Shown piece after piece: positions 1 through 8,688 of a stretch of DNA of 55,414 nucleotides. The number at the start of each line of letters is the position of its first letter. Position 1 is the stretch's first letter. A model generated the notes under the pieces. The model searched no databases. It had not been told where the DNA came from and saw only the letters and a list, made by a program, of their open reading frames with translations. A program made the translations under genes and the position numbers. This DNA comes from Nitrospirota bacterium (GTDB lineage: Bacteria > Nitrospirota > Nitrospiria > Nitrospirales > Nitrospiraceae), in contig JAHRHE010000006.1 in the NCBI GenBank assembly GCA_020027965.1, positions 1-55,414 on the forward strand. Direction: 5' to 3'.

Positions 1-677
1 TATCCGACGCCGCGGGCCGCAACCAGGGCCCCGGGAAAACCCGGATGGCTTTCGATCTTCCGCTTCAGCCCCTGAACATACCGGTCTAGTTGTCCTTCAT
101 GGACCGGATTGCACTCGCCCCACAGGAGTGTCATCAACTCTTCCCCTGTGACCATTTCTCCGACCTGTTTGGCCAGTCGCCGGAGAATCCACCACTCGGG
201 CGAAGATAACTGTAGCCGCGAGCCCTTGAATGCCACTACGAAGGCACTGTCCTCCAGAACCAGCTCGGCACCCAGGCGCTCCTCCTTGAGGACGGCCCTC
301 AGCCGAGCCCGCCGTAACACCGCCCTCACGCGCGACACTACCTCTCGCGGACTGAACGGCTTGTCGATGTAGTCGTCTGCGCCCAACTCAAGACCCGCCA
401 CGCGGTGGTCTTCGGAACCCAGAGCTGACACCATGATGATCGGGATGGATTGCGTCCAAGGATCCTTCCTTAGCCGCCGGCACACTTCATGGCCGTCCAG
501 TCCGGGCAGCATGAGGTCAAGGAGCACCAGCGCGGGTTGGAGCCGCCTAGCATCCTCCAGCCCGATCGCCCCATCGTAGGCGACATTAGTTCTGAAGCGA
601 GCCTTGCGGAGGGCCAGGTCCAACAGGAATGCCTGGTCAACATCGTCCTCTATAATCTGAACGATTTCTACGGACAT
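1..677 (-). CDS. OmpR/PhoB-family response regulator (C-terminus cut by window edge)
   Basis: About 225 residues are visible, and only the last few are missing beyond base 1. The N-terminal receiver domain (residues 4-120) has the acidic pair after IIEDD, the phospho-acceptor Asp54 in LLDLMLPG, and the switch Lys in DDYIDKPFSP. The C-terminal winged helix (about 130-225) has the typical recognition-helix segment RYVQGLKRKIE and stops just at the usual RGVGY end. It would act as a cytoplasmic DNA-binding regulator paired with a histidine kinase, which probably lies just outside the window. Its promoter carries the same heptamer repeats as the porin and pstS genes here, which points to a PhoB-type phosphate regulator with autoregulation. 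The start is an ATG with no clear ribosome-binding site, and the predicted transcript leader is very short. The family is certain; the PhoB role is inferred from context. Confidence 0.85.
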   Translation of the reverse strand, partial: MSVEIVQIIEDDVDQAFLLDLALRKARFRTNVAYDGAIGLEDARRLQPALVLLDLMLPGLDGHEVCRRLRKDPWTQSIPIIMVSALGSEDHRVAGLELGADDYIDKPFSPREVVSRVRAVLRRARLRAVLKEERLGAELVLEDSAFVVAFKGSRLQLSSPEWWILRRLAKQVGEMVTGEELMTLLWGECNPVHEGQLDRYVQGLKRKIESHPGFPGALVAARGVG

Positions 678-687
678 GCCACGAAAG

Positions 688-743
688 ACCCTACCTTCCT
701 GACATTTCGAGGCCGTCAATCATCCGTTACAACCTCGTTAACT
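688..743 (-). promoter_or_regulatory. Candidate Pho box and promoter of the response regulator
   Basis: Read on the minus strand, heptamers AGTTAAC, TTGTAAC and GATTGAC start every 11 bases with 4-base spacers. They are followed by a poor fourth unit (TCGAAAT) and, exactly 10 bases later, the hexamer TAGGGT at 688-693. The same order and spacing precede the porin and the second pstS gene. The third heptamer and the -10 are the weakest of the set. The predicted start of transcription is only a few bases from the ATG at 677. Confidence 0.45.
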
Positions 744-780
744 CTTCCTGCTCCCACGACCGTGTCCGCCGCCAAGGTAA

Positions 781-836
781 TTTTAACCAGTCTGTAACAA
801 TCCGGTCATCGGTCTGTGACACTCCGGCTGTACAAG
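781..836 (+). promoter_or_regulatory. Pho box and promoter of the phosphate porin
   Basis: Four heptamers TTTTAAC (781), CTGTAAC (792), CGGTCAT (803) and CTGTGAC (814) recur with an 11-base period and 4-base spacers. The hexamer TACAAG at 831-836 lies exactly 10 bases after the last one. PhoB in other bacteria binds direct repeats of CTGTCAT-like heptamers with this period, replacing the -35 element. The site is about 100 bases upstream of the porin ATG. It is seen directly in sequence; PhoB binding is inferred. Confidence 0.65.
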
Positions 837-932
837 TTCGTCGCGACACACGCCACGAAGGCAGGCCTAGTCTGTCACCAGGGACATGACAAATCCTCAT
901 GCCAATGAGAAGGACAAAGGAGGGATCGAGCG

Positions 933-2399
933 ATGACACGAGCATACTTGGTGGCGTTCGTGACGGGCATCATCCTGACCCTGCCGCCTGCCACGCTGCT
1001 CACGCGGGCCAACGCAGAGCAGGGGCCAGCCCAGACCCAGACTCCGGCCACGCCGGCCGCCGGAGCGCCGCCGGCCCCCGGCGGCATGATCCAGCGCGGA
1101 GAGAAGGGCATCGAGAGCACCTCATTGGAAGACCTGTTGCTCGAGAAGGGCCTCATCACGATGGATGACTGGATCCGGATCAAGGCCGAGGAGGAGCGCC
1201 GGGTCAACGAACGCTCCGTCGTGGCTGAATTTACCGGCAGCCCCCGGTGGTACGAACGGATCGTGATGTACGGGTACGGCATGTTCCGGTACAACCCGAT
1301 TCTTTCGACGACAAACCCCCTGACCGACTACCATGACGCATCCATCGGGAATAACACGGGCTTCTTCTTCCGTCGAATCCGCTGGGTGGTGACCGGCCAG
1401 GTCTCTGACCATGTGGCCTTCTTCATCCAGCCCGACTTGGCGACCAACAGCGGCGGCAATCCCTATGTGCTGTCGATGCGGGATGCCTACGGCGATTGGT
1501 ACTTCGACAAGGAGAAGGAGTATCGCCTCAGAGTCGGCCTGCAGCGCGTGGCCTGTTCCTTTGACAACTGGCAGGCGAGCCGCGTTCGTATGGCCATCGA
1601 CCGTGCGGATGCCACAAATAGCTGTCAGCAAAGCGAGCGCGATACCGGAATCAGCTTCATGTGGACCCCCAAGATCGCCCAGTACCGTTTCAAGCAGATG
1701 CTGGACTACATGTATGGCCCAGGCGACTATGGCGTGCTCTGGATCGGAGTCTATAACGGGCAAGGGGCCAATGCTGGTGAGGCGAACGCAGATAAGCACG
1801 TGGGGATGCGTCTGAGCTGGCCTCTTGAACTTCCCGGTGGGCGGCTGATGGAAGTCGGCGTGAACGCCATGCGCGGGATGTTCAACGTCTCCATGGGGGG
1901 CGCGGGAAGTACAACCACGTTGTTCTCCTTTAATGAAAGTGGGAACACGGCGGCCCGGAATTACCGTGACGAGCGGCTGAACTTTTACGTGTATTACCCG
2001 CCGCAACCCTGGGGGTTCGTCGGTGAGTATGTGCTGGGGCGAGGTCCCGAACGTGGTGCTGACGGTATCGTGAGGGTGAGCTCACTCTACGGTGGCTATG
2101 GCCAGCTTCATTACCAGTGGAAATACTCCGATACCGGACTGGCCAATTTCTACACCAGGTACCAGTACTACAACGGCGGGGTGAAATTCCTGACCGGAGC
2201 GCCGAATGACAAGATGCAGGAGGTCGAGGTCGGAGTCGCCTGGCAGCCGGATCCCCAATGGGAGTTCACCATGGCGTATGCCTACATGCACAGGCCCAAT
2301 ACCTCGCAGACGTTCCTCAGTACGGCGACCATCCCTGGTCGACAATTTACTGCCGATGCCAATCTGCTTCGGTTCCAAGTGATCTGGTTTTGGAACTGA
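933..2399 (+). CDS. Phosphate-selective porin (OprO/OprP family)
   Basis: This 488-residue protein has a signal peptide (residues 1-28, ending near ANA), a short proline-rich stretch, and a coiled-coil-like segment (about 45-75, LEDLLLEKGLI...EEERR). A long region rich in aromatic, glycine and charged residues follows, typical of a 16-18 strand outer-membrane barrel, and the protein ends in Trp-Asn rather than Phe. The layout matches the porin O/P family, whose members form trimeric anion channels for phosphate or polyphosphate. The start is supported by AAGGAGG about 8 bases upstream. The upstream Pho box and the two PstS genes on the facing strand support uptake of phosphate across the outer membrane under starvation. 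Substrate specificity is inferred from family and context; a related arsenate or general anion porin is possible. Confidence 0.85.
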   Translation: MTRAYLVAFVTGIILTLPPATLLTRANAEQGPAQTQTPATPAAGAPPAPGGMIQRGEKGIESTSLEDLLLEKGLITMDDWIRIKAEEERRVNERSVVAEFTGSPRWYERIVMYGYGMFRYNPILSTTNPLTDYHDASIGNNTGFFFRRIRWVVTGQVSDHVAFFIQPDLATNSGGNPYVLSMRDAYGDWYFDKEKEYRLRVGLQRVACSFDNWQASRVRMAIDRADATNSCQQSERDTGISFMWTPKIAQYRFKQMLDYMYGPGDYGVLWIGVYNGQGANAGEANADKHVGMRLSWPLELPGGRLMEVGVNAMRGMFNVSMGGAGSTTTLFSFNESGNTAARNYRDERLNFYVYYPPQPWGFVGEYVLGRGPERGADGIVRVSSLYGGYGQLHYQWKYSDTGLANFYTRYQYYNGGVKFLTGAPNDKMQEVEVGVAWQPDPQWEFTMAYAYMHRPNTSQTFLSTATIPGRQFTADANLLRFQVIWFWN

Positions 2400-2437
2400 A
2401 AAGAAGGCTCGGGGCACTGGGCAAGAAACATTTCGCT

Positions 2438-3154
2438 TCAGCGAGCCGGCGTCGCGGCAGGAGGGTTTAGGCTGGTGGAAGACTTCCCGGCCTCGGCGAG
2501 CTGCTTGAGATCAATCACGAGCAGCTTTGATTCATCGACGTATCGTTCATACTCCTGTTGTCTCCTGAGGTGGGCATTCGGAACCCTCGCGGAATCTGGT
2601 GTAAACCCTACCGTGAACTTGCGTCGCGCAATGGGAAGGAGTGGGTCATCGCGTGGGTCGAATTCGTAGGTGTTTTCATACTGCACGGAACTGGGGGACG
2701 TACGCACATTCGCCAGAATGACGTACAGGTGGCCATTCCGGAGAAAGAGCCCGCCCGAGGTGACCAGCTTGCCTTGTCTGGGATCACCGCTGGTCAGATA
2801 GAACGTGACCATATCTCTGGGAGAGGCTTTCTTGAACGCCTGCGAGAGATAGGGCGCCAGCCGCATTATCTCCGAGGCCAAGAAGGCAGGCGCACCCTCC
2901 TTGTCGCCAAAGAATCCAAACCCCCCGACAATGTCTCGATGGCGTACCCACACCCCGCGAAGGACGAGAGCCATCTGCTCAGGGGTGAGCTGGGCCGGGT
3001 GACTATGACCGGCCCCTGCTTCGGGATCGAACTTGACCCAAATCGAGTCTAGGCGGTCCTCATGAATCACGATAGGGGCTGGCTGCGCAACGCACCCGGT
3101 CACCAGCGCAGCCAGTATGATCCAGCCGACCATCTCTTCCAGCCACCGACTCAT
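2438..3154 (-). CDS. Predicted lipoprotein of unknown function, linked to pstS
   Basis: From the ATG at 3154 the protein has 238 residues and begins with a hydrophobic signal and lipobox (WIILAALVTGC), so it is probably a lipid-anchored periplasmic or outer-membrane protein. A second possible ATG at 3130 also keeps the lipobox. The mature part has one recognisable stretch on sight, a conserved-looking acidic and aromatic block, but I do not recognise the family. It follows the first pstS gene on the same strand with 85 bases between, and converges on the porin, so it is probably co-transcribed with pstS and part of the phosphate locus. Upstream in-frame codons to 3238 lack a signal-like start and are left out. 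Confidence 0.6.
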   Translation of the reverse strand: MSRWLEEMVGWIILAALVTGCVAQPAPIVIHEDRLDSIWVKFDPEAGAGHSHPAQLTPEQMALVLRGVWVRHRDIVGGFGFFGDKEGAPAFLASEIMRLAPYLSQAFKKASPRDMVTFYLTSGDPRQGKLVTSGGLFLRNGHLYVILANVRTSPSSVQYENTYEFDPRDDPLLPIARRKFTVGFTPDSARVPNAHLRRQQEYERYVDESKLLVIDLKQLAEAGKSSTSLNPPAATPAR

Positions 3155-3239
3155 CTCTACGACCGCCGTGGCGACAAAAGACACGCACCGAGTTCGCCCA
3201 CCGAGCGCTCGGTGCGTCTTCTCCCGGAATACCAGCACA

Positions 3240-4361
3240 CTAGTGTGAGGAGGCCTTTATGCCGAGGGGGGGCACCGCAGACCCGGTGAGGGTCTGAAGA
3301 TTCGCAGCGACCTGCGCCGCCGACAGAGCGTAGGCTCCCTCTTTCAGCACCACCTCCTGCCCTTCCCGGCTATTGGCAAACTTGAGAAACTCCAGAGTAA
3401 CAGGCTCCAGCTCGGAGCCCGGGGCTTTTCGAGCGTACAGATAAAGCAAGCGGCTCAGCGGATAGGTTCCGTTCGAAGCCGACTCGGCGCTCGGCCTGAT
3501 GTAAGGCATCCCGGCTTTCTCGGCCAAGGGAACCACTCGGACCGTGGAGGCCTGAAAGCCAATGCCCGCATATCCGATCCCAAAAGCATCACGGCTGAGA
3601 GCCAGAATCTCCAAAGCTACGCCGCTCTCCTCCCGTATGTTTTTCTTCAACTCTCCACCCAGCAGGACTTGATCGATAAAAAAGGTGCGGGTACCGGATT
3701 GCTTGTCCCTGCCATATACGTTGATGGGCTGTTGTGTCCAGTCACCTTCCACTCCCACCTGGCCCCAGGTCGTAATGCTTTCCGGAAACCCACGCTTGCG
3801 ATTGTTCCCGAAGATTGCATCCACCTGCTCCATCGTGAGCCCCTGGACGGGATTGCGACTGTTCACATAAATTCCTATCGCGTCCAGCGCGATAGGAATC
3901 TCGGTCGGCTCGAAGCCATATCGGGACCGAAACTCCTTCCGCTCTTCGTTAGTCAACGGACGAGAGGAAGCCAGCAGAGCAATGCTCCCGGATACTTGGT
4001 GCCCTCTTGGATTTGGATCTGCGTCACCACGTCGGATGAGCGCCTGATCCTGCAAGAAGTTTTTGAGGGCTGCGTCCGAGCCGCCACCCTGCACGGCTAA
4101 CTTGACATTCGGCTGCAATTGCCGAAACACGGAGGCCATCCTGACCATAATCGGATGCATGGTGTCGGACCCCGCGATGACGATCGCACCGGAGACACCG
4201 GCCGGTGCAACATAGGATCCGATCGCAGGATCGACGACGCGCCTGTCCGTCGGCGTGGCGTGTTCGGCCAGGATCTCTGAGGCAACCCCCAGGACCATAA
4301 GCCCCATGAGCGTGCCGCAAAGAATAATAGTTTGCTTTTCCCGTCTCTCAAGTCTTGCCAT
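3240..4361 (-). CDS. pstS: PstS-family phosphate-binding protein (copy A)
   Basis: A 373-residue periplasmic binding protein with a signal peptide (residues 1-31). The start at 4361 has GAGGAGG about 6 bases upstream, so the in-frame extension to 4430 is rejected. Family marks are SGAIVIAGSDTM near the mature N-terminus (the Ser/Thr loop that holds phosphate), GGGSDAAL, the segment GRDKQSGTRTFF, and a C-terminal PLSR.LYLY strand. In the family the protein captures inorganic phosphate for the PstCAB ABC transporter, but no pstC, pstA or pstB is in this window. It is a clear paralogue of the next gene upstream, with the same segments in the same order. It has no Pho box of its own, so it is probably read from the promoter of copy B 1.3 kb upstream. 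Confidence 0.85.
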   Translation of the reverse strand: MARLERREKQTIILCGTLMGLMVLGVASEILAEHATPTDRRVVDPAIGSYVAPAGVSGAIVIAGSDTMHPIMVRMASVFRQLQPNVKLAVQGGGSDAALKNFLQDQALIRRGDADPNPRGHQVSGSIALLASSRPLTNEERKEFRSRYGFEPTEIPIALDAIGIYVNSRNPVQGLTMEQVDAIFGNNRKRGFPESITTWGQVGVEGDWTQQPINVYGRDKQSGTRTFFIDQVLLGGELKKNIREESGVALEILALSRDAFGIGYAGIGFQASTVRVVPLAEKAGMPYIRPSAESASNGTYPLSRLLYLYARKAPGSELEPVTLEFLKFANSREGQEVVLKEGAYALSAAQVAANLQTLTGSAVPPLGIKASSH

Positions 4362-4509
4362 CGGTGTTCCTCCTCTTGCGAGCACGCCTATGGAACCGCG
4401 GCATAGTAGCGACAACCGTTTGGCAGGCAAGTATAGCCGAGGTCTTCAGAGAAAAACAGGGCGCTGGAGCGTGATGCCACCCCAGCGCGCATCCTTCCGC
4501 TCGAATGGT

Positions 4510-5640
4510 TCAGTTGACGGATGTGGATACAGATCCCGCCACTATGCCTGTGCCGGTCAGCACAGCCACGTTCCTGGCGACTTGCCGAGCCGGCAAGGGA
4601 TAGGCGCCGGCTTTGACCACCAAGTCCTGTCCTGCACGGCTGTTCACGAACTTGAAGAACTCCAGAACTTCCGGTTCCAGCCCGGTCTTCGGATCCTTCT
4701 TGGCATAGAGATATAACTGGCGACTCAACGGGTAGGTCCCGTTCGCCACTGATTCGGGCGAGGGTGCGACGAAGGGCGCTCCGACTCGCTCGGCCAGAGG
4801 GATGACTCGGACCGTTGACGCCTGGAAGCCGATGCTGGCGTACCCGATCCCCAGGACGTCCCGGCTAAGGGCCAAGATTTCTGATCCTGGACCGACTTTG
4901 ACTTGGACATCCGGCCGGAGAGTTCCATCCTGCAGGACTTTCTGGATGAAGAGTGCTCTGGTACCGGAGCACTGGTCCTGCCCGTAGCGATGAATCGGCT
5001 GCTGTGCCCATTCGTCCTTCAGGCCAAGCTGTCCCCAGGTGGTGATTTCCCTCTGCAAGCCACGCTTGCGATCCTGGCTAAAGATCGCGTCCAGTTGCTC
5101 CAGCGCAAGCCCTTCGATGGGGTTCTGGCGGTTCACGTACACGGCGATCGCGTCTAGTGCGATAGGAATTTCCGTGACGTCATAGCCATATCGAGACCGG
5201 AAGTCTTGCCGCTCGTTTTCCGTGAGCGGACGCGATGCGGCCAGCAGACCGATCTCCCCGGAGACGTGGTGACCGCCTTTCGGGCTGCCATCGCCACGCC
5301 TGAGTGTGGATTGGTTCTGGAGAAAACCCATGAGGGGGGCGTCGGTCCCACCCCCTTGAACGGCGATCCTGACGTCGGGCTGCCATTCCCGGAACGCAGA
5401 GGCGATCTTGGCAATAATCGGCTGCATGGTGTCCGAACCCGCAATGACAATCGCACCAGAAACCTTTTGTTTGGCCACGTAGAGGCCAATCGCATCATCC
5501 ACGACCGGTTTGCCGTGTATCCCTGCATGGTCCGCGCTGGCACCACCGGCCAGTCCCAGCAGCACCATCAACAATCCGAGCGCCCCGCCCAGTGCTGGCA
5601 TCGGCGTATGGAAACTCGCCCGCCTAATCAACCTCATCAT
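4510..5640 (-). CDS. pstS: PstS-family phosphate-binding protein (copy B)
   Basis: A 376-residue paralogue of copy A. I place the start at the ATG at 5640 because GGGGAGGAACG sits upstream of it; the ATG at 5658 would put that ribosome-binding site inside the gene. The signal peptide runs to about ASA. The phosphate-site segment SGAIVIAGSDTM, the GGGTDAPL loop and GQDQCSGTRALF are present, the last including a Cys where copy A has Lys-Gln. It is the first gene of a likely operon (copy B, copy A, lipoprotein) and has a strong Pho box 60-120 bases upstream. Two binding proteins may differ in affinity or ligand (phosphate, arsenate, organophosphate); the sequence alone does not say which. Confidence 0.85.
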   Translation of the reverse strand: MMRLIRRASFHTPMPALGGALGLLMVLLGLAGGASADHAGIHGKPVVDDAIGLYVAKQKVSGAIVIAGSDTMQPIIAKIASAFREWQPDVRIAVQGGGTDAPLMGFLQNQSTLRRGDGSPKGGHHVSGEIGLLAASRPLTENERQDFRSRYGYDVTEIPIALDAIAVYVNRQNPIEGLALEQLDAIFSQDRKRGLQREITTWGQLGLKDEWAQQPIHRYGQDQCSGTRALFIQKVLQDGTLRPDVQVKVGPGSEILALSRDVLGIGYASIGFQASTVRVIPLAERVGAPFVAPSPESVANGTYPLSRQLYLYAKKDPKTGLEPEVLEFFKFVNSRAGQDLVVKAGAYPLPARQVARNVAVLTGTGIVAGSVSTSVN

Positions 5641-5703
5641 GAACTCGTTCCTCCCCATCTTCTTGTGTGGTTATTCCGGATCACGCTCGCTTTTCTGCAA
5701 ACC

Positions 5704-5759
5704 ATGGTATTCCAAGGACGTTGCGGATCAATAACCGGTGTGTTACAGCCGTGTTAATT
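5704..5759 (-). promoter_or_regulatory. Pho box and promoter of the pstS operon
   Basis: On the minus strand, heptamers AATTAAC, CTGTAAC, CGGTTAT and CCGCAAC repeat every 11 bases with 4-base spacers. The hexamer TACCAT follows exactly 10 bases after the last. This is the same architecture, and nearly the same first three words, as the porin promoter at 781-836. The distance to the pstS start codon is about 64 bases. Confidence 0.65.
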
Positions 5760-8612: not shown

Positions 8613-8688
8613 GCTGGCGTAGCTCAATCGGCAGAGCAGCGGTTTTGTAAACCGCAGGTTGGAGGTTCGATTCCTCTCGCCAGCTCCA
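8613..8688 (+). tRNA. tRNA-Thr (anticodon UGU)
   Basis: The 76-base sequence folds as a cloverleaf. The acceptor stem GCTGGCG pairs with CGCCAGC. The D-arm has AGCTCAATCGGCAGAGC, the anticodon stem GCGGT/ACCGC encloses loop TTTGTAA with anticodon TGT, and the T-arm has GGAGGTTCGATTCCTCT... The CCA end is encoded. It reads ACA threonine codons. Confidence 0.95.

Follow-up and report, generated by a model that had tools for sequence, protein, structure and literature searches.

Sequence comparison confirms three sites in the window (the whole 55,414-nucleotide stretch analysed here, making up all of C162, one of the 263 contigs of a 3.6 Mb genome whose closest named relatives are Nitrospirota and Nitrospira genomes from metagenomes) as what appear to be real and strongly conserved Pho-box promoters, built like the pstS promoter of Escherichia coli. 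Since the E. coli layout is known, as are the published binding and sigma-70 contact, the architecture and mechanism of these promoters are textbook and they represent no new kind of switch. What looks particular to the lineage is a well-supported dialect of the box, in which the order of the units is fixed. The identity of the regulator encoded beside one of the sites is also corrected. A literature search found no study on the Pho box of Nitrospira-like bacteria.

Anatomy of the three promoters

The layout common to the three sites consists of four 7-base units separated by 4-base spacers and followed, after 10 bases, by a −10-like hexamer. Site A (688–743, minus strand) reads AGTTAAC gagg TTGTAAC ggat GATTGAC ggcc TCGAAAT gtcaggaagg TAGGGT, with units 1 to 4 at 743–737, 732–726, 721–715 and 710–704 and the hexamer at 693–688, and it precedes an OmpR-type response-regulator gene (1–677, minus strand) which is cut by the contig end and in which the receiver residues are present. 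Site B (781–836, plus strand) reads TTTTAAC cagt CTGTAAC aatc CGGTCAT cggt CTGTGAC actccggctg TACAAG, with units at 781–787, 792–798, 803–809 and 814–820 and the hexamer at 831–836; behind it lies a Porin_O_P outer-membrane porin of the phosphate-selective porin family (933–2399, plus strand; PF07396, 4.6e-24). Site C (5704–5759, minus strand) reads AATTAAC acgg CTGTAAC acac CGGTTAT tgat CCGCAAC gtccttggaa TACCAT, with units at 5759–5753, 5748–5742, 5737–5731 and 5726–5720 and the hexamer at 5709–5704. The 11-base period, the 10-base gap and the positions given for all three sites in the initial annotation are exact. Its claim of a TANNNT hexamer at every site stands for TAGGGT (A) and TACCAT (C) and fails for TACAAG (B), and its assignment of the units to a set of word types does not extend to unit 4 of site A (TCGAAAT) or of site C (CCGCAAC), which match none of them.

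The first gene after site C encodes a PstS-like substrate-binding protein (4510–5658, minus strand; PF12849), which scores 175.9 bits against TIGR02136, under the cut-off of 206.6. It is followed by a gene for a second PstS-like substrate-binding protein (3240–4361, minus strand), 60% identical to the first, and then by an ORF that matches no family; pstCAB genes were not seen in this stretch. The second PstS-like gene was found to have no Pho site of its own upstream (best matrix score −24.1), so it is either cotranscribed from site C or controlled separately. Elsewhere in the window, a tRNA-Thr with anticodon TGT occupies 8613–8688 (plus strand).

Sites A and B are oriented divergently, 37 bases apart, so that one double operator serves both the regulator and the porin; the same arrangement is present in L003, L004, L009 and L012. 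The hexamer of site A ends only 10 bases upstream of the regulator ATG (675–693, minus strand), and the corresponding distance in close relatives is about 7–16 bases; since the hexamer lies so near the start codon, the regulator mRNA is predicted to be leaderless or nearly so, with no room for a ribosome-binding site.

Specificity and conservation

The individual words are short and degenerate, which is what gives some initial plausibility to the idea that the sites are A+T-rich chance repeats in a G+C-rich genome. This idea has already been refuted by controls, and its probability is negligible. Under a matrix whose training sites came from other genomes, the three sites receive 57.6, 47.5 and 31.6, and the next best score in the 55 kb is −2.2; the maximum reached by 300 column-permuted matrices is 16.4, and the scores fall when just one spacer is made a base longer or shorter. 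With a leave-one-out matrix, sites A, B and C score 33.6, 43.3 and 52.5, and shuffled promoters score at most 9.6. The permuted-matrix, reversed-matrix and spacing controls thus rule out chance repeats, and genome-wide specificity and conservation are likewise contrary to them.

Genome-wide specificity was evaluated using profile R1, a sequence-only profile built from the sites of relatives with the own genome left out of the building. Over the whole 3.6 Mb genome, at E≤10, R1 gives only four matches: sites A (E = 0.019), B (6.9e-8) and C (3.3e-9), and a site at position 2989 of contig C60, which sits upstream of another, classical PstS gene. Site A is the weakest of the three window sites, having a poor −10 and a poor unit 4. 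Contig C60 (L145; 3.4 kb, with a histidine kinase end) carries three Pho-like sites in all, at 1732–1769, about 2590–2645 and 2989–3044, which lie upstream of an mgsA-like ORF, a small ORF and the classical pstS respectively, and only the last of them passes R1.

The sites are also conserved. The leave-one-out matrix recovers them upstream of all 9 porin relatives, of 27 of the 29 pstS-like relatives and of 5 of the 10 regulator relatives, and orthologues of site A occur in L049, L050 and L051. Across 246 Nitrospirota genomes, R1 has matches at E≤0.01 in 114, and these are densest in the own family and one other family of the same order. All 23 of the automatically selected, previously unseen loci of this phylum scan lie upstream of pstS-like, porin or regulator genes, as do 26 of 27 scored loci in nearer relatives. 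Several loci from relatives had themselves served in training, which does not apply to the matches in the own genome or in genomes that contributed no training site. Weaker matches, picked by hand, extend the list to pstC, a CBS-domain protein, a lipoprotein and a copy of phoB. The box is therefore found specifically upstream of phosphate-uptake genes; the enrichment before pst and porin genes that the initial annotation had proposed looking for in relatives is strong, and its reading of the sites as Pho promoters is supported by the genome-wide specificity and by the pstS, porin, pstC and regulator promoters of relatives. In three genomes (L180, L182 and L183) a Pho-like four-unit site lies about 50 bases before a gene for a two-CBS-domain protein, which is no obvious phosphate gene.

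A lineage dialect with a fixed unit order

The information carried by each unit, and the offset of the hexamer, were measured on 41 sites anchored on the units alone, all of which keep the same position. TANNNT occurs at offset 10 in 23 of the 41 and, over the range 0 to 30, no more than once at each of the other offsets. Units 1 to 4 carry 12.6, 10.7, 5.3 and 6.2 bits; an A stands at unit position 6 in 41, 41, 40 and 41 of the sites, unit 1 is TTAAC in 34 and unit 2 is GTAAC in 29. No fifth upstream unit is present in these sites, where the upstream information is limited to an A two bases before unit 1.

Whether the order of the units is itself informative can be evaluated by training a unit-specific matrix on pstS promoters only and applying it to the 29 porin, regulator and C60 sites. 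The true order ranks first of the 24 permutations in 18 of these sites, compared with an expected 1.2, and units 1 and 2 are correctly placed in 28; a left-out site receives 33.8 bits under unit-specific scoring versus 25.0 under a pooled unit. These figures are subject to an ascertainment effect, in that the matrix used to find the later sites already took unit order into account and the sequences are related, an effect which the near-complete recovery by the leave-one-out matrix limits and does not remove. The proposal that the first two words have a constant order is thus supported, since the order is recovered across non-homologous promoters. The dialect is well supported: unit 1 is TTAAC(A), unit 2 is GTAAC(A), units 3 and 4 are weaker, and the order carries over between promoters that are not homologous.

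In Bacillus subtilis the PhoP words are of the TTAACA type. Pho operators are described as consisting of 11-base units with species-specific words and as involving head-to-tail binding and sigma-70 contact (PMC4415409). The direct-repeat operators of B. subtilis PhoP and Streptomyces PhoP (PMC4415409) resemble the window sites in their repeats of 11-base units, along which an OmpR-family phosphate regulator binds in tandem; the fixed −10 distance and the unit-specific words, in contrast, belong to sites of the window type. The cyanobacterial SphR box, which has at least three tandem copies of the word CTTAACCT with a 3-base linker (PMC1906773), shares the 11-base period and the TTAAC core seen here in unit 1, but it uses one word in all of its units, whereas here TTAAC is confined to unit 1 and the rest are of a G-T type.

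The closest parallel is the E. coli pstS promoter, which consists of two tandem Pho boxes for PhoB and which in K-12 is read here as CTGTCAT-4-CTGTCAT-4-CTTACAT-4-CTGTCAC-10-TATTTT; phoA is read as CTGTCAT-4-TTGTCAC-10-TATAGT. The pstS promoter and the window sites have in common the four 7-base units, the 4-base spacers, the −10 after 10 bases and the driving of pstS. The layout is the same and the word is different: E. coli uses CTGTCAT-type words where the window sites use TTAAC and GTAAC types, its true order ranks only 12 of 24 under the Nitrospirales matrix, and R1 finds no match in the E. coli pho loci. The literal word does not decide whether a site is a Pho box, because the consensus varies between species (PMC4415409). 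The window sites have at least two direct repeats of 7 conserved and 4 less conserved bases, and, as in E. coli, where the repeats end 10 bp upstream of a −10 of the form TAN3T/A (PMC1906773), their repeats end 10 bases before the −10 without a separate −35, with two of the three fitting TANNNT.

These comparisons bear on the claim of the initial annotation that this lineage has extended the known PhoB box by placing an NNTTAAC unit in front of it. The preference for TTAAC in unit 1 and GTAAC in unit 2, and the transferability of the unit order between non-homologous promoters, would be compatible with such an addition. However, the same four unit places already exist in E. coli pstS, and a TTAAC-type word has been published (PMC1906773), so the front unit is no extension. 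In addition, of four pstC promoters from distant Nitrospirota, three are built from near-uniform units, a pattern easier to reconcile with a unit 1 that diverged than with one that was added. An added unit is a decidedly improbable origin. The three (L188, L189 and L191) each have four almost identical CTGTAAC units, a form which is possibly the ancestral form of the operator. Bounded by E. coli on one side and the distant Nitrospirota on the other, the lineage-specific part looks to be the dialect and its polarity only.

The regulator and the proposed mechanism

In most relatives the NCBI PhoB model picks out a good PhoB-like candidate, which in the own genome lies at C89:26081-26749. This protein lies below the cut-off of the model (241 versus 296 bits), but of the positions which we take, from the PhoB–DNA structure, to be those contacting DNA (193, 194, 197, 198, 200, 201 and 203) it keeps E. 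coli R193, T194, V197, H198, R200 and R201, with K at 203; the genome thus contains a PhoB with a matching recognition helix. Its gene adjoins a histidine kinase, a DUF47/PhoU-like gene and a Pit-type transporter, named by reading the sequence rather than by family search. Autoregulation of the PhoB-like regulator was considered and rejected: among 30 loci no Pho site was found upstream of it, except at a second copy in G001, and the C89 phoB has no box of its own.

The window regulator is an OmpR-type response regulator with an intact receiver, including the phosphorylation residues, and a winged-helix domain. At the same seven positions it has G, Q, R, Y, Q, G and K where PhoB has R, T, V, H, R, R and R, with EGQLDRYVQGLKRK in the recognition helix where PhoB has DRTVDVHIRRLRKA, and it scores 153.5 bits against TIGR02154, over a truncated protein, versus a cut-off of 296.2. 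The missing PhoB recognition helix rules it out as PhoB. It could be supposed that the operator nevertheless belongs to this protein, which would control itself, the porin and pstS with PhoB uninvolved, and the gene does adjoin the porin, is linked to pst genes in relatives and is itself preceded by a conserved site. Against this, genomes such as G001, G005, G012 and G022 have the same pstS site and no close relative of the regulator (best matches of about 36–41% identity, a generic level), the recognition-helix residues that are replaced here are kept in the C89 regulator, which has a counterpart in most genomes, and the window regulator and its orthologues form a separate clade with support 1.0; such control is accordingly unlikely. 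Because of its altered recognition helix, its separate clade and its absence from many genomes that carry the same box before pstS, the window regulator is, on sequence grounds, most likely a target of PhoB and not PhoB itself, and probably a Pho-controlled secondary regulator. The initial annotation was right, then, that a Pho promoter lies upstream of the response-regulator gene, but that gene does not encode the PhoB expected to bind the box. In some Nitrospira genomes (L158, L168, L199 and L201) the porin-linked regulator driven by a Pho box is another OmpR-type protein, with a reduced, degenerate-looking receiver and a different recognition helix, EEHALDVHIHALRQK.

It is highly probable that A, B and C act as class-II PhoB promoters controlled by phosphate. 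This proposal builds on their anatomy, conservation, genome-wide specificity and regulon content and on the presence of a PhoB that keeps the recognition helix of the E. coli protein; binding, phosphate response, start sites and loading order are predicted from it. At low phosphate, phosphorylated PhoB (most likely the C89:26081-26749 product, with the adjacent histidine kinase) would bind the four 11-base units head-to-tail. Counted back from the −10, units 1 and 2 would fall at about −62 to −45 and units 3 and 4 at about −40 to −23, so that the downstream pair would replace the −35 element and present sigma-70 region 4 to RNA polymerase. The nearly invariant units 1 and 2 would load first, and the weaker units 3 and 4 would be filled through cooperativity and sigma contact, switching on the porin, the PstS-like binding protein or proteins and the secondary response regulator. 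A tentative elaboration, which is possible and on balance rather doubtful, is that the polar, position-specific code (TTAACA in unit 1, GTAACA in unit 2, a weaker remainder) sets the loading order of four PhoB molecules, and that PhoB also activates a further layer of diverged PhoB-like regulators, encoded beside porin and pst genes and altered in their recognition helices, in a two-step cascade.

Nitrospira-like bacteria include major nitrite oxidisers, and the sites are useful for mapping their phosphate control. The matrix predicts the Pho regulon, apparent false positives being very few, and flags the secondary regulators beside the phosphate porin as targets. The fixed order of the units lends itself to a clean natural test of whether PhoB loads hierarchically.
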